Positions 19,423 to 38,789 of a stretch of 48,514 bases of DNA are shown one piece after another. The stretch spans positions 1 to 48,514 of the forward strand of contig JASEIG010000005.1 of NCBI GenBank assembly GCA_030017615.1, given 5' to 3'. Position 1 is the first letter of the stretch. Each line of letters begins with the position of its first letter. Both the position numbers and the translations under genes were made by a program. The stretch comes from Patescibacteria group bacterium. GTDB taxonomy: Bacteria > Patescibacteriota > Minisyncoccia > UBA6257 > UBA9933. A model generated the notes under the pieces. It ran no database searches and had not been told where the DNA came from. It saw only the letters and a program-made list of their open reading frames with translations.

Positions 19423-19423
19423 T

Positions 19424-19512
19424 AAATTGCTAAATTGTTAAAATTGCTGAATTGTTCAGAAATCAGTTTGCTTATAATATCCAACAATTAACAATGTAAC
19501 AATTTAACAATG
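19424..19512. repeat. cargo-free hairpin element (8-mer arms)
   Basis: The left arm (about 19424-19457, AAATTGCT/AAATTGTT units) and the right arm (about 19482-19512, AACAATTA/ACAATGTA units) are inverted. The element starts 1 nt after the stop of the 18091 gene and ends shortly before the prgI-like start. Confidence 0.65.
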
Positions 19513-19519
19513 AAGTAGC

Positions 19520-20047
19520 ATGCAATTTCAAATACCACAATTTATAGAAACGGAAGATAAAATCGCCGGACCTTTAACGCTGAAGCAATTACTTTATTTT
19601 ATCGGGGCCGGAGCGGTGAGTTTTTTGGCTTATGCGATTTTTAGTTTTTGGCTGTGGTTTTTAATAACCGTGATTTTAGCCGCTATCAGCGCGTCTTTCG
19701 CTTTTTTAAAATATAACGGCCAGCCGCTGATTAAAATCGCCTTTTCCGCTTTGGAGTTTTTTTGGAATCCGAGACTTTATGTCTGGCAGAGAGAAGCGAA
19801 AATGAAAACCTATGAAGTTCCCGGGATAGAAGAAAAAGAAGAAAAAATAATGCAAAAAAGAGAAAGTCTCGGCGAGTCGTTTGGAATGCCCTCAATTAAA
19901 AAACTTTGGGATGATCTTGTTACGACTAAAAATCCGATTCCTCAAAGAGAAAAAAGTATGCCGATTGCGAAGATTATGGAGAAGCTGGATGTTTTCAGAA
20001 AAATAACGGGAGAGAAAGAAAAGGTGAAGAGGGTGGATTTTAGATAG
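19520..20047 (+). CDS. PrgI family membrane protein
   Basis: 175 residues. The start FQIPQFIETEDKIAGPLTLKQLLYF is the hallmark of PrgI-family proteins, small inner-membrane components of Gram-positive and CPR T4SS. Two membrane helices follow (about 25-43 and 46-65) and then a cytoplasmic tail of about 110 residues. PrgI genes normally sit directly before the VirB4-type ATPase. Here a four-helix-bundle cassette has been inserted between them. The stop TAG coincides with the left end of that cassette. Confidence 0.85.
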   Translation: MQFQIPQFIETEDKIAGPLTLKQLLYFIGAGAVSFLAYAIFSFWLWFLITVILAAISASFAFLKYNGQPLIKIAFSALEFFWNPRLYVWQREAKMKTYEVPGIEEKEEKIMQKRESLGESFGMPSIKKLWDDLVTTKNPIPQREKSMPIAKIMEKLDVFRKITGEKEKVKRVDFR

Positions 20048-20515
20048 GTTGTAATTAAGTAATTGGTAATTAAGTAATTATGAAAAAAGTTTAAATTACG
20101 ATTATGGAATTAAAAGATTTAGAGATTTATAAATTAGCCAAAGAAATTAGCAATAAATCATGGAAAATTTATGAAAAACTAAATTGGCAAGATAAGAAAA
20201 TAATGGGTGATCAATTTATTTCAGCAACTGATTCTATAGGCGCTAATATAGCAGAAGGCTTTGGACGTTTTCATTTTTTAGACAAAAATAAATTTAATTA
20301 TAATTATAGAGGCTCTTTATTAGAAAGCATTTATTGGTTGGAAATTTTACAGAAAAGAAGTAAAATTAATAATAATTCCTTTCACGAAATAAATTCAAAG
20401 TTAAAAATATTACATCAAAAATTAAACAATTATATCAATTCAACTAAAAGGCAAACATATAAATAATTACTCAATTATTTAACCACTCATTTACCAAATT
20501 ACCAAGTTACAATAT
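20046..20515. mobile_element. cassette: four-helix-bundle gene between inverted heptamer arrays
   Basis: The left arm at about 20046-20082 read on the minus strand gives TAATTAC, TTAATTA, CCAATTA, CTTAATT. The right arm at about 20463-20515 reads TAATTAC, TCAATTA, TTTAACC, ACTCATT, TACCAAA, TTACCAA, GTTACAA. The arms are therefore inverted copies of a heptamer array around the 20104-20466 gene. The element fits exactly between the stop of the PrgI gene and the ATG at 20517. Confidence 0.65.
20104..20466 (+). CDS. four-helix-bundle protein (23S rRNA IVS / S23 type)
   Basis: 120 residues, the usual length of this family. Helix-rich, with the signatures ELKDLEIYKLAKEISNKSW at the N-terminus, DQFISATDSIGANIAEGFGR near 37-57, and FNYNYRGSLLESIYWL near 66-85. 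Family members were first described as proteins encoded by intervening sequences in 23S rRNA and share the pentameric four-helix fold of the DGR accessory protein Avd; a nucleic-acid-binding role is suspected. Here the gene sits in a cassette inside the T4SS block, not in rRNA. Codon use looks more AT-rich than its neighbours. Its function in this place is unknown. Confidence 0.85.
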   Translation: MELKDLEIYKLAKEISNKSWKIYEKLNWQDKKIMGDQFISATDSIGANIAEGFGRFHFLDKNKFNYNYRGSLLESIYWLEILQKRSKINNNSFHEINSKLKILHQKLNNYINSTKRQTYK

Positions 20516-20516
20516 T

Positions 20517-21161
20517 ATGCAAAATTCCAGCCCAACACAACAATTTGTAGATGTAAAAGAAGTGAGAAACGGAGTTGTTATTTTAAAAAACGGGGGAATT
20601 AGAAGAATTCTTCTGGTAACGGGAATAAATTTTGCTCTGAAGTCTGAAGAAGAGCAAAGCATGATTGCCGCGGCGTATCAAAATTTCATCAATTCGCTGG
20701 ATTTTTCTCTTCAAATGGTAATTCATTCCAGAAAACTCAATATTGAAAAATATCTGACTAATTTAGCGGAAGCGGGAGAAAAAAAGAATAACGAACTTTT
20801 GAAAGAGCAGATTTCCGAATACAGGGAATTTATAAAATCGTTTGTGGAAAACAATGAAATTATGTCAAAGACATTTTTTGTCGTAGTACCGTATGACCCG
20901 CTGGTTATTCCGGAAAGACCGGCCAAATTATTTGAAAATATTCCTTTTTTTGGAAGCAAGAAAAATAAAAAAGAACAAGAAAAATCTTTTGAAGAGCAGA
21001 TAATCCAATTGGATCAAAGAACCGATCAGGTAATAAGCGGATTGGCGGGTATCGGGCTAAGATCGGTGTCGTTAAATGACGAAGAGCTGGTGGAATTATT
21101 TTATAATTTATATAATCCGGCTTCGGTTGAGAAAAAAGAACTTAAAATAGCCAAGGAGTAA
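20517..21161 (+). CDS. VirB4/TraC N-terminal-like protein
   Basis: 214 residues. The opening TQQFVDVKEVRNGVVILKNGGIRRILLVTGINFALKSEEEQ and the FVVVPYD stretch (about 123-129) resemble the N-terminal, non-ATPase domain of TraC/VirB4-type proteins, which contacts the inner-membrane complex. In this block it is a separate gene ahead of the ATPase gene at 21584. A GxxExxY cassette now separates the two. No Walker motif is present. The start ATG directly follows the four-helix cassette. Confidence 0.7.
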   Translation: MQNSSPTQQFVDVKEVRNGVVILKNGGIRRILLVTGINFALKSEEEQSMIAAAYQNFINSLDFSLQMVIHSRKLNIEKYLTNLAEAGEKKNNELLKEQISEYREFIKSFVENNEIMSKTFFVVVPYDPLVIPERPAKLFENIPFFGSKKNKKEQEKSFEEQIIQLDQRTDQVISGLAGIGLRSVSLNDEELVELFYNLYNPASVEKKELKIAKE

Positions 21162-21578
21162 TCGCGAATATACCCGCCCGCCGACAGGCAGGCGAATCAA
21201 ACGCAAATATGCAAATGACTACCAAAACCACTTCTGATAAAGTTATCTATCCAGAATTAAGCTATCGAATTATCGAAACAGCTTTTGAAGTTTTTAATAA
21301 ATTAGGTTCTGGCTTCCAAGAAAAATATTATCAGCGCGCATTTGCAAGAAAATTGAAATTACTTGGGATAAAATACGAAAAAGAAAAGAGTGTAAATATA
21401 GTTTATGGTGAAAATTCTTTAGGTAAATACCTTTTAGATTTTATTATTGATCATAAAATAGCAGTTGAATTAAAGGCGTGTCCAAAATTAGGATATACTG
21501 ACGTGAAACAGATTTTAAATTATTTAAAGACTGGAAATTATAAATTAGCTGTTATTAATTAAATTTGTATATTCGCGA
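21162..21578. mobile_element. GxxExxY cassette, complete copy, with terminal inverted repeats
   Basis: The 417-bp unit begins with TCGCGAATATAC (21162-21173) and ends with GTATATTCGCGA (21567-21578), a perfect 12-bp inverted repeat. It begins right after the TAA of the preceding gene and ends 5 nt before the next ATG. A shorter copy with the same ends is at 23330-23502. A GC-rich hairpin (21175-21194) and 9-mer units lie between the left end and the gene. Confidence 0.8.
21209..21562 (+). CDS. GxxExxY family protein
   Basis: 117 residues. The family-naming motif is seen as GFQEKYY (residues 34-40), preceded by SYRIIETAFEVFNKLGSG. The later LLDFIIDHKIAVELKA resembles a PD-(D/E)xK nuclease core (D-x-n-E-x-K: D77 or D80, E87, K89), which is the fold proposed for this family. 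Biochemical function is unknown. The start may be the ATG at 21209 or the next one at 21215. It is cargo of the TCGCGAATATAC-ended cassette. Confidence 0.85.
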   Translation: MQMTTKTTSDKVIYPELSYRIIETAFEVFNKLGSGFQEKYYQRAFARKLKLLGIKYEKEKSVNIVYGENSLGKYLLDFIIDHKIAVELKACPKLGYTDVKQILNYLKTGNYKLAVIN

Positions 21579-21583
21579 ATACT

Positions 21584-23329
21584 ATGGAGAAAATAAAAAT
21601 ACCACAATCATATAAACCGGGAGAAGCCGATGTGGAGAATGTTATCGCGCCGGCGGCGATGGAAATAAACCCCAATTATTTAAGATTAGAAAACGCTTTT
21701 TCAAAAACTTTATTTTTATTCACTTACCCGAGATTTCTTTCCACAGGCTGGTTTGATTCAATTATTAATCTGCCCAATCTGATGGACATATCAATTTTTG
21801 TTCATCCCGTAGATACGTCCGCCGCTTTAAAAAAACTCAGAAAAAAAGTTACGCAAATACAGGCTCAACTTATGGAACGGGAAGAAAAAGGTTTGATCAG
21901 AGACCCGATTTTAGAAACAGCGTATCAAGATATTGAAGATTTAAGAGACCAGCTCCAGCAGGCGCAGGAAAAACTTTTTAATGTGGGAGTTTACATAACG
22001 ATTTACGCCGATTCCATTGAGAAACTTAATTCTTTGGAAGAAAAAATTATTTCCATACTTGACAGCCAATTAGTTTATGTTAAGCCGTCTATTTTCCAGC
22101 ACATAGACGGATTTGTTTCCACTTTGCCGATTGCTCAAGACAAACTTGGCGTTCACACGCCCTTAAACACCGGTCCGGTTTCTTCACTCTTTCCTTTTGT
22201 GGCGGTCGATTTAACTTCCGATTCGGGAGTTTTATGTGGCATAAACCAGCACAATAATTCATTGGTTATTTTTGATAGATTTTCTTTGGAAAATGCCAAT
22301 CAGGTGGTGTTTGCGAAAGCCGGCGCCGGAAAATCTTACGCGACCAAACTGGAAATTATAAGATCGTTGATGCTTGGAATAGATATAATGGTAATTGACC
22401 CGGAAAACGAATATCATCGTTTGGCGGAGTCAGTTGGAGGAAGCGTTTTAAAAATTTCTTTAACTTCTGAAACGTCAATCAATCCGTTCGACATTCCAAT
22501 AATTCCGGAAGGTGAAAACGCGTCAGATGTTTTTAAATCGCATATTTTAAATTTAGTCGGACTTTTAAAATTGATGCTGGGACAGGTAACACCCGAAGAA
22601 GACGCGGTATTGGATCGCGCGATAAACGAAACGTACGCTTCAAGGGGAATTACCGGGGACGTAAAAGATTTTTCAAAACTGGAAGCGCCTCTTTTGGAGG
22701 ATTTACAAACAGTTTTGGAAAATATGGAAGGCGGGCAGGGATTGGCTTCGCGACTGTATAAATACACAAAAGGGACTTATGCGGGATTTGTGAATAAACC
22801 GAGCAATATTGATGTGAAAAACAGATTAGTGGTGTTTTCAATCAGGGATTTGGAAGAGGAACTCAGGCCAATTGCCATATATATAACGCTTAACTATGTC
22901 TGGAATCTCGTGCGAGCGGAACTTAAAAAGAGAATACTTATAATAGATGAAGCTTGGTGGATGATGAAATATCCCGACAGCGCTTCTTTTCTTTTCGCTC
23001 TGGCAAAACGATGCAGAAAATATTATCTGGGGCTTACTACGATTACGCAAAATGTGGAAGATTTTTTAAATTCTCCGTATGGACACCCAATTATCACCAA
23101 CTCTTCTTTACAGCTTTTATTGAAACAAGCGCCGTCAACAATTGATTTGGTTGCCAAAACTTTTAATTTAAGCGAAACAGAAAAAAATTTAATTTTAAGC
23201 GCGGATGTGGGAGAAGGCATATTTTTCGCGGGGTTGAAACATGTTGCGATAAAAGTAATCGCTTCGTATTTTGAAGACCAGTTGATTACGACTAACCCGG
23301 AACAGTTGTTGGAAATGAAAAAAGAATAA
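21584..23329 (+). CDS. virB4: VirB4/TraC-type T4SS ATPase
   Basis: 581 residues. The N-terminal part IPQSYKPGEADVENVIAPAAMEINPNYLRLE leads into a coiled-coil region (about 84-140), then the ATPase domain. Walker A AKAGAGKS is at about 245-252, an adjacent IMVIDPENEY block follows, Walker B ILIIDEAWW is at about 450-458, and the TraG/VirB4-like LTTITQNVEDFL follows. VirB4 ATPases power pilus assembly and substrate transfer in T4SS. The protein lacks the N-terminal VirB4 domain, which is supplied by the separate gene at 20517. No VirD4, VirB11 or relaxase gene is seen nearby. The ATG follows the cassette end by 5 nt. Confidence 0.92.
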   Translation: MEKIKIPQSYKPGEADVENVIAPAAMEINPNYLRLENAFSKTLFLFTYPRFLSTGWFDSIINLPNLMDISIFVHPVDTSAALKKLRKKVTQIQAQLMEREEKGLIRDPILETAYQDIEDLRDQLQQAQEKLFNVGVYITIYADSIEKLNSLEEKIISILDSQLVYVKPSIFQHIDGFVSTLPIAQDKLGVHTPLNTGPVSSLFPFVAVDLTSDSGVLCGINQHNNSLVIFDRFSLENANQVVFAKAGAGKSYATKLEIIRSLMLGIDIMVIDPENEYHRLAESVGGSVLKISLTSETSINPFDIPIIPEGENASDVFKSHILNLVGLLKLMLGQVTPEEDAVLDRAINETYASRGITGDVKDFSKLEAPLLEDLQTVLENMEGGQGLASRLYKYTKGTYAGFVNKPSNIDVKNRLVVFSIRDLEEELRPIAIYITLNYVWNLVRAELKKRILIIDEAWWMMKYPDSASFLFALAKRCRKYYLGLTTITQNVEDFLNSPYGHPIITNSSLQLLLKQAPSTIDLVAKTFNLSETEKNLILSADVGEGIFFAGLKHVAIKVIASYFEDQLITTNPEQLLEMKKE

Positions 23330-33980: not shown

Positions 33981-34077
33981 TACAGAGTGGCGAGCGGAGG
34001 CGAGCCACGGAGCGTACCCGCTGAAGTGAAACATCTCAGTAAGCGGTGGAACAGAAAAAAATGCGAAATATTTTTTT

Positions 34078-34148
34078 CTGACTCACGACTTATAACCAAC
34101 AACTTACGACTTTTTGTCGTTGGTTGTCAGTTGTTTGTCGTTAGTCAG
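34078..34148 (+). repeat. heptamer hairpin insertion in 23S rRNA
   Basis: A 33-nt left arm (34078-34110, starting CTGACTCACGACTTATAACC) and a 33-nt right arm (34116-34148, ending GTCGTTAGTCAG) are imperfect inverted repeats around TTTTT. Units are RACNNAC-type heptamers. It replaces a short loop of the standard 23S. Confidence 0.85.
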
Positions 34149-34257
34149 AAATGTGCTTCGCGCATTCCCTTAGTAGCGGCGAGCGAAACGGGAAGAGCCC
34201 AAACTGAATTTTTTTCGTAAGAAAAAATTTCAGGGTTGTAAGGTAAGTGCGCTCTTC

Positions 34258-36654: not shown

Positions 36655-37089
<435 letters not shown>

Positions 37090-37328: not shown

Positions 37329-37669
37329 TAATACATTGGGGTGCCATGACAGTAATGTCATAGCAAAAAATTCTGAACCCAAAAACAAAATCTGACTTAT
37401 AACGGTGAACTCCATATGATAAAATTGTTATATGGACAATACCGTGGGAAGTTTGACTCAATGCCAAAATTGAAAGAGTTATTAAGCGACAAAATAATTC
37501 TTTCAATGAAATATAAAATTGAGTTATAACCCCGTAGAGACTTGCTCTGTAAAAAGAGCGGGTAGAAGTTTTAAAATTTCTACAAGACGTCAGCCCCTAT
37601 TAGATGCGCATAAGCGCTATCCAATAGGGTGAAGATATAGTCCATACTATTAGTAATAATAGAAAAATG
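37329..37669 (+). ncRNA. group I intron 2 in 23S rRNA (insertion site about L2500)
   Basis: 341 nt. The exon junction GGCACCT / CGATGTCGGCTC lies at the peptidyl-transferase centre (after U2500 in E. coli numbering). Core motifs are CGGTGAACTCC...ACCGTGGGAAGTT, GTAGAGACTTG and GAAGATATAGTCC. Sequence similarity to intron 3 (CTGACTYATA..CGGTGAA) suggests common descent. No ORF. Confidence 0.88.
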
Positions 37670-37762
37670 CGATGTCGGCTCACCCTAGCGCGGGGCTGAA
37701 AAAGGTCCCAAGCGTTTGGCTGTTCGCCAATTAAAAGGGTACGCGAGCTGGGTTCAAACCGT

Positions 37763-38297
37763 CAAATGGCGGCCTCTGATGGTAACATCAGAGTGTCCAA
37801 AACTGACTCATATCGGTGAAATCCTAATATTGCAATATTAACCTGTCGCATATTAGGATAATACCGAGGGAAGTTGTAAATTCTTATTAAGGCAATATAA
37901 TTTAGGTTATATACGCGAGCGAAATGACGGAATTATTGAATGGATAATCGGGAAAGAAGATAAAATAAAATTCATTCTCGCAAAAACCATTCCCCATCTG
38001 TATTTAAAAGAAAATCAAGCCAAATTAATGATGAAAATTTTGGAAATGAAATCACAAATCCTAGATAAAAAAGATTTTGTGATATTAGCAAAAGAAATTG
38101 AAAAATTTGAAAAGCTAAACTATTCCAAAAAACATAAAAAAAGAATTTATTAACCCCCTAGAGACTATTCGATTTAATCGAATGAATCGTTTTTTTGAAA
38201 GCGATTAAAACGTCAGTACTCCTTTAAAAAAAGGAGTATGGTATAGTCCATACACTTAGTAATAAGTGAGAAATCTAAATGTTTTTAGATAAATATG
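37763..38297 (+). ncRNA. group I intron 3 in 23S rRNA (insertion site about L2593)
   Basis: 535 nt. The exon junction AACCGT / CGTGAGACAGG corresponds to E. coli U2593, a known group I site. Core: CATATCGGTGAAATCC, ATACCGAGGGAAGTTG, CTAGAGACTATTCG and GGTATAGTCC. It contains the decayed homing endonuclease at 37871-38153. Confidence 0.88.
37871..38153 (+). pseudogene. remnant LAGLIDADG-type homing endonuclease in intron 3
   Basis: An open frame without a start codon encodes LGYIRERNDGIIEWIIG, then KIKFILAKTIPHLYLKENQAKLMMKILEMKSQ and a Lys-rich end. This resembles the C-terminal half of single-chain or half-LAGLIDADG proteins found in group I introns (DG..EW followed by L..I.PYL..K..Q). The N-terminal half with the LAGLIDADG helices is missing, so the enzyme is dead and the intron can no longer spread by homing alone. 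About 90 codons remain. Confidence 0.65.
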
Positions 38298-38471: not shown

Positions 38472-38561
38472 AATCCCAAGATTAGGTGTCGTTATAGGAT
38501 CCTAGAAGACTACTAGGTTGATAGGTTTCAGGTGTAAGCGCCGTAAGGCGTGATAATTATT

Positions 38562-38648
38562 TAACTGATAACTAAACGACAAACGACAAACGACAATCGG
38601 CTTCGGCCGAAAGTTGCAGGTTGTGAGTTGCAGGTTATAGGTTGTTTA
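38562..38648 (+). repeat. heptamer hairpin insertion near the 23S 3' end
   Basis: Left arm TAACTGA, TAACTAA, ACGACAA (three times), TCGG; loop CTTCGG; right arm is its imperfect inverse (CCGAAAGTTGCAGGTTGTG...). It lies in the terminal helices of domain VI. Confidence 0.85.
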
Positions 38649-38789
38649 ATCAGCCGAGAAATACTAATAATCCGATTTACCCTCTTCTCTGAAATTAAAT
38701 TTAGATAGCCGATTAAATTTGGCAGTGGGAGAATTACGCCTATTAATTGAAATTTTTGCGGTGAAAATATATTAAAATTGCAGATAATG

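Follow-up and report, generated by a model that had tools for sequence, protein, structure and literature searches.

Four-helix-bundle S23 genes between inverted period-7 arrays: a probable mobile, IVS-like cassette at operon junctions

The window, a stretch of 48,514 nucleotides (contig JASEIG010000005.1 of assembly GCA_030017615.1), belongs to a 566 kb CPR genome and carries T4SS genes in which a four-helix-bundle protein of the S23/IVP family is encoded between the PrgI-family gene and the gene for VirB4N (Table 1). Its profile matches lie above the curated cut-offs (PF05635, 73.5 bits versus 33.8; TIGR02436, 73.9 versus 24). The S23 cassette possesses terminal inverted repeats, built from a unit GTAATTA(A)/(T)AATTAC that recurs every 7–8 nt, and the term heptamer is therefore slightly idealised for these arms. 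An earlier sequence-only reading of this DNA had described a four-helix gene with inverted arms between PrgI and a VirB4-type gene, and this description is borne out by the profile matches and the arms. The matched arms reach a score of 20, which lies at z = 3.7 relative to dinucleotide-shuffled sequences, and rank second among the 111 possible right flanks, and the energy fold of the complete 470-nt element is not unusual (z = -1.2). Taken alone, the window copy hence provides moderate evidence, and the weight of the argument rests on the set of loci. The remaining S23 genes of the same genome also have inverted arrays on both sides, each with its own unit; one lies in a pilin operon, one is frameshifted (L003) and one is located between GAPDH-like and RpiB-like genes.

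Table 1. Features of the window discussed in the text, with profile E-values or fold z-scores where available
Feature	Position	Strand	Remarks
Cargo-free inverted array AACAATT/AATTGTT, between an unnamed gene and PrgI	19423..19519	+	fold z -1.4
PrgI-family gene, host gene 5' of the cassette	19520..20047	+	PF12666 6.4e-10
Left arm, array GTAATTA(A)/GTAATTG	20049..20081	+	7-8 nt spacing; begins right behind the PrgI stop
Inverted arm pair	20049-20064/20497-20512		81%
Inverted arm pair	20063-20077/20491-20505		87%
Inverted arm pair	20067-20081/20463-20477		15 nt, 93%
Cargo, S23/IVP four-helix-bundle protein	20104..20466	+	120 aa; PF05635 1.9e-20, TIGR02436 1.1e-20
Right arm, inverted AATTAC-type array	20463..20512	+	ends 4 nt 5' of the VirB4N start codon
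VirB4 N-terminal gene (VirB4N), host gene 3' of the cassette	20517..21161	+	NF045975 3.1e-11
Left terminal repeat of second cassette	21157..21173	+	AGTAATCGCGAATATAC
Second cassette cargo, GxxExxY PD-(D/E)XK nuclease-like protein	21209..21562	+	PF13366 9.2e-29, TIGR04256 1.3e-26
Right terminal repeat of second cassette	21567..21583	+	GTATATTCGCGAATACT; directly 5' of the VirB4C start
VirB4 C-terminal gene (VirB4C)	21584..23329	+	NF045971 9.2e-111
Cargo-free hairpin in 23S rRNA, period 7	34055..34165	+	z -9.3; short helices split by 2-nt loops
Rfam group I intron in 23S rRNA	36663-36986		
Interruption of 23S rRNA	about 37370-37670		
Interruption of 23S rRNA	about 37795-38280		
Cargo-free period-7 hairpin in 23S rRNA	38555..38660	+	z -4.2; CGACAAA units

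Inverted period-7 arrays flank most S23 genes, both across the order and in other bacterial phyla. An order-wide sample comprised 111 full-length S23 genes picked from the best family matches, with E-values and heptamer calls being approximate. In this sample, flank identity is 0.43/0.44 at lag 7 and 0.40/0.39 at lag 14, compared with 0.26–0.31 at other lags and 0.25–0.27 farther from the genes; the autocorrelation peaks solely at lags 7 and 14 in the 60 nt adjoining the gene and is gone 110 nt away. The left flank scores 18.1 against the reverse complement of its own right flank and 9.4 against those of other loci, with 70 of the 111 loci over the 95th percentile of mismatched flank scores and 80 at z > 3, while arms are weak or absent in about one fifth to one quarter of the genes. 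Four-helix genes of relatives thus do carry the flanking inverted arrays expected under the cassette model. A second sample consisted of 80 named S23 loci from GTDB species, 61 of them outside the CPR and isolates included. In the non-CPR loci, identity at lag 7 (0.436 on both sides) equals the CPR signal in strength and matched flanks score 17.3 versus 8.7 for mismatched ones, 40/61 loci being over the 95th percentile of the latter. For instance, the S23 gene of a Phormidium isolate is flanked by (GGGAGTC)n and (GACTCCC)n, and period-7 flanks are also found on cyanobacterial plasmids, such as (TAGGGAG)n in Nostoc. The same signal in non-CPR loci, isolates and plasmids rules out an artefact of a single assembly or clade. 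The paired arms form stems of short helices with small loops between them, and mismatches within arm pairs recur at multiples of 7 (175 versus 108 expected at distance 7), which could reflect either structure or the copying of a mutated unit. In two cyanobacterial genera, cas6 and cas4 of a CRISPR locus on a plasmid have an S23 gene between them; one of these loci has long direct, not inverted, AAAAGCT/AAAAGCC arrays on both sides of the gene.

The heptamer follows the protein, also at unrelated insertion sites. Both arms could be called in 97 loci; in 26 of these the left and right heptamers are identical and in another 40 they differ by one step, as opposed to 0.3% and 3.4%, respectively, of mismatched locus pairs. 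Non-syntenic S23 pairs with at least 70% identity share a heptamer (distance of at most 1) in a proportion of 0.71 (n = 7), those with 60–70% identity in 0.27 (n = 66) and those below 50% in 0.035–0.06. At 60% identity or above, the observed sharing of 0.315 exceeds the maximum of 1000 permutations (0.178), in a comparison that uses related sequences and in which similarity falls off fast under 60% identity. Since close S23 proteins at non-homologous sites share heptamers, either arms and cargo travel jointly or the protein selects its arms. The S23 protein is under purifying selection, with a dN/dS of 0.05–0.12 for pairs with usable dS. Among consensus units TAG is enriched (57 versus 27 expected) and TG is scarce; repeated at period 7, TAG places a stop codon in all frames while few start codons arise, a composition that, speculatively, may insulate translation.

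The cassette occupies junctions that stand empty in congeners. Within one genus, the genes for CorA and a sugar transferase meet as TGA-T-ATG with no insert in two genomes (G226 and G227), whereas in two others (G228 and G229) a 459-nt S23 cassette with arms sits exactly between stop and start, leaving both genes unaltered. The ends of the filled junction, TGATAATG and CCCATG, are compatible with a 3-bp ATG duplication and do not prove one. In the same genus, the synthetase–dnaG junction holds an S23 cassette, a long cargo-free heptamer array or neither, in one genome each. The PrgI–VirB4 gap behaves similarly and the gene there is not constant: the gap measures 15–115 nt in most relatives compared and is otherwise filled by an S23 cassette (L008, L015 and L034), by a GxxExxY gene (L016, with a remnant in L011) or by another hairpin. 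By coordinates, S23 also lies in this gap in three further genomes (G060, G063 and G052), being antisense in G052. The S23 proteins and heptamers of these relatives differ from those of the window. At the junction common to the window and L008, the S23 proteins are 30% identical and the PrgI proteins 64%; the two insertions are therefore independent, and vertical inheritance at this junction is ruled out. Presence and absence at orthologous sites with intact neighbours, as found at the CorA junction and in the PrgI–VirB4 gap, is the pattern of a mobile element, and we consider it probable that the S23 gene moves together with its two arms as a single IVS-like cassette of about 470 nt, which resides at an operon junction instead of in rRNA. 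The cassette model of the sequence-only reading withstands both refuting conditions that were set for it, namely four-helix genes of relatives without flanking arrays and a gene always present between PrgI and VirB4. It is supported and can be generalised: a mobile IVS-like element carries S23 genes as cargo and has heptamer arms specific to the protein. S23 could instead be a domesticated operon regulator that tunes the neighbouring genes through binding to arrays in the S23 mRNA and spreads by ordinary recombination, as purifying selection and the junction positions conserved in places (cas6–cas4 in two cyanobacterial genera) would allow; given that the host genes are unrelated, that empty sites exist inside one genus, that one junction has gained S23 genes independently and that copies such as L003 are broken, this explanation appears very unlikely.

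Some S23 cassettes also lie within coding sequences. In eight loci, among them the pilin-operon copy of the window genome, S23 is found in-frame in the leader peptide of type IV prepilins. These cassettes end just before the peptidase cleavage site and their right arm is translated, for instance as NSKFQIPNSTKG-FTVIELI in L051. As the cassette sits ahead of the peptidase site, the mature pilin would stay unaffected. Pilin leaders are also encoded by cargo-free arrays in the window genome.

A second type of cassette lies in the same operon of the window, at the junction between the two virB4 genes, and encodes a GxxExxY (PDDEXK_3) protein. In a relative (L010), a GxxExxY protein 61% identical to that of the window is encoded at the same junction. 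The possibility that the cassette splits virB4 was ruled out, as the relatives compared encode VirB4 in two genes, with the cassette placed where these meet. Similar to S23 cassettes, GxxExxY cassettes consist of an ORF of about 120 aa between inverted short-period arms and are located at the same kinds of junction. In contrast to S23, the cargo has a nuclease-like fold, the arms have a period of about 10 and the terminal AGTAATCGCGAAT is common to several families. A single repeat class for both cargoes is ruled out by these arm periods, with S23 confined to the period-7 class. Hence, the suggestion that the four-helix protein is the natural cargo of such elements holds for period-7 arms and has to be restricted to them, the period-10 arms having GxxExxY as their cargo. 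Members of a separate GxxExxY lineage are found in-frame in RecG, where DEQH and SATPIPRT are the motifs on either side (seven loci), and in LepA, where GITIKMAPVRM precedes and the DTPGH motif follows or the reverse (five loci), at the same position in several families and with translated arms of an approximately 10-nt period. Further in-frame copies occur in P-type ATPase, transketolase, NADH dehydrogenase-like and O-antigen-ligase-like proteins. These in-frame sites are intein-like, and no splicing domain was noticed in them. At the same T4SS junctions, four relatives (L010, L014, L018 and L020) have REP/MITE-like GTCATTCC(C/G)..GGAATGACA hairpins. No prior link between GxxExxY proteins and repeats was found in the open-access literature searched.

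Period-7 arrays are also found away from S23 genes. Ten S23-rich genomes contain 14 noncoding period-7 arrays in 200 kb, of which 13 do not adjoin an S23 gene and one does, compared with a single array in 200 kb of ten S23-free genomes; at lags 5, 6, 9 and 10 there is no comparable excess between the same two 200-kb sets. Cargo-free arrays match S23 heptamers of their own genome within one mismatch in 31% versus 15% of cases, a modest tendency, and by eye some repeat the same-genome S23 heptamer, such as GGCTAGT in G210 and GTATACG in G183. It has to be considered whether the arrays lie outside the element, arising and being homogenised by slippage and hairpin template switching, with S23 genes inserting or surviving where such arrays exist. 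Heptamers that vary by locus while the arms within a locus are homogenised, and the recurrence of mismatches every seven positions as if units had been copied within arms, are in line with this proposal; that the heptamer tracks the protein across unrelated sites already weakens it strongly, arrays are scarce in S23-free genomes, GxxExxY cassettes have a period of 10 and the exact period of 7 is left without explanation, making it quite unlikely as an account of the arms.

The closest relative of the S23 cassette is the 23S rRNA intervening sequence (IVS) with S23p. As described in PMC4990558, the 23S IVS of Coxiella burnetii contains an S23 ORF, terminal inverted repeats and a tandem heptamer, GACAGAT, that is present upstream of the ORF in 2–3 copies depending on the strain, and the IVS is removed by RNase III. 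The IVSs of Coxiella and Leptospira share with the S23 cassettes an S23/IVP ORF between terminal inverted repeats and a length of about 430–470 nt and, as in Coxiella, a heptamer array in the 5' arm (PMC4990558). They differ in that IVSs reside in rRNA and are excised by RNase III, whereas the S23 cassettes described here occupy stop–start operon junctions or prepilin leaders. The available part of PMC4990558 does not extend the Coxiella heptamers beyond rRNA. Since the window cassette lies between prgI and virB4 and not in an rRNA helix, we refer to it as IVS-like and not as an IVS. IVP ORFs have been reported in rRNA insertion sequences of the CPR, that is for the same protein family and radiation, in a survey that covered rRNA genes only and whose text contains neither 'inverted repeat' nor 'tandem' (PMC11270868). 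The 23S rRNA of the window itself contains cargo-free hairpin inserts with z-scores of -4.2 to -9.3, some of them clearly of period 7. It also holds a group I intron and two more interruptions toward its 3' end (Table 1). The sequence-only reading had noted a hairpin of the same type without cargo in the 23S rRNA and had joined 23S IVSs and protein-operon insertions into one element family. Period-7 hairpins are indeed present, with heptamers that differ from those of the window S23 arms, and blastn detected no S23 gene within 23S rRNA among the S23 loci fetched; the link to IVSs consequently rests on the shared architecture, the Coxiella IVS (PMC4990558) and the CPR IVP ORFs (PMC11270868).

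The AF2 model of the window S23 protein (pLDDT 95.9) is closest to the solved structures 2gsc (TM 0.89) and 2rld (TM 0.81), followed by Avd of diversity-generating retroelements (4dwl and 8ub7; TM 0.75–0.80), which shares the four-helix fold at 10–12% identity. The Xanthomonas S23p is cited as a homopentameric toroid by Warrier et al. (PMC4990558). No match to a reverse transcriptase (RT; PF00078) was found in the window genome, and hence not the RT with template and variable repeats that characterizes a diversity-generating retroelement. Likewise, PF01797 gave no match there to the TnpA_REP-type Y1 transposase that marks REP/RAYT systems (REPtrons). Like MITE/REP elements with their RAYT (Y1), S23 cassettes are short, intergenic, multicopy hairpins; they differ in having a conserved gene and period-7 arms that are set by this gene. 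S23 was not found in phage records in one query. Transposition in trans, in which an unlinked DNA transposase moves any hairpin with fitting ends and S23 is a passenger, seems unlikely: the ends are inverted, S23 has no catalytic domain and these T4SS junctions hold REP/MITE-like GTCATTCCCGC hairpins in relatives, but S23 evolves under purifying selection and determines the sequence of the arms, 95 of 97 S23 genes with codirectional neighbours are in sense, and Y1, the transposase surveyed, is found in just 70 of the order's 244 genomes compared with 163 containing PF05635. Retromobility with an RT in trans and S23 in an Avd-like role would suit the Avd fold and the sense orientation, and RTs do co-occur with PF05635 (90/163 versus 17/81 genomes, p 3e-7). 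However, 66 of 133 strong-S23 genomes have no RT, including one with 8 S23 matches (G219), and 23 of 30 genomes with weak PF05635 matches (E above about 1e-15) bear an RT. Part of the RT association is therefore probably true Avd; these weak matches, which would inflate S23 counts, are probably Avd and not S23, and we regard retromobility of this kind as rather improbable. An RT or Y1 transposase as obligatory partner is rejected given the lack of PF00078 and PF01797 matches in the window genome and the partly Avd-like nature of the RT link.

For the S23 cassette we hypothesize that each heptamer is read by a ring of its cognate S23 protein, the most likely target being single-stranded or hairpin RNA in the cassette transcript, and that such recognition would let the cassette and cargo-free arrays spread. 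RNA as the target of S23 is favoured by the sense orientation, residence in rRNA and kinship to Avd, although the sense bias can equally stem from selection for expression. The cassette has no visible promoter and would be transcribed from the host operon, and by analogy with 23S IVSs its arms may pair in the transcript, so that the insert would be folded away or cut out and the neighbouring genes left intact. With neither an RT nor a Y1 transposase match in the window genome, any assignment of the enzyme that makes the copy is speculative.

Heptameric intergenic repeats are over-represented in bacteria and have been reported without explanation (PMC4692102 and PMC4990558). Described heptamers include GGGAATC in Xanthomonas, with 70–75 inverted pairs, and GGGGA(T/C)T in Nostoc (PMC4692102), as well as TAACTGA in Beggiatoaceae (PMC4679880); 'S23' does not appear in the texts of PMC4692102 and PMC4679880. 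These repeats resemble the S23 arms in being intergenic and of period 7, often as inverted pairs in Xanthomonas, and differ in that they are often direct arrays with one heptamer per genome. As 2gsc is XCC0516 of Xanthomonas campestris, the model predicts that GGGAATC arrays flank XCC0516. We found no prior link between S23 and heptameric repeats in the open-access literature searched, preprints lying outside this scope, and priority is uncertain.

We know of no function assigned to the S23/IVS protein, of which a structure has been available since 2006. The evidence is about evenly balanced on whether there is a cross-phylum mobile element whose sole gene encodes a small, ring-forming nucleic-acid-binding protein lacking a catalytic domain and whose ends are heptamer arrays specified by this protein, with 23S IVSs, cassettes at operon junctions, fusions to prepilin leaders and a large part of the so far unexplained heptameric repeats of bacterial genomes as its forms. 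The data join two puzzles, in that the heptameric repeats constitute the termini of S23 cassettes and are predictable from the protein, and S23 cassettes account for many 'four helix bundle protein' annotations. A minimal element can thus inhabit operon junctions, rRNA and prepilin leaders while leaving its hosts unbroken, and both the function of S23 and the heptameric repeats become testable by a simple binding experiment.
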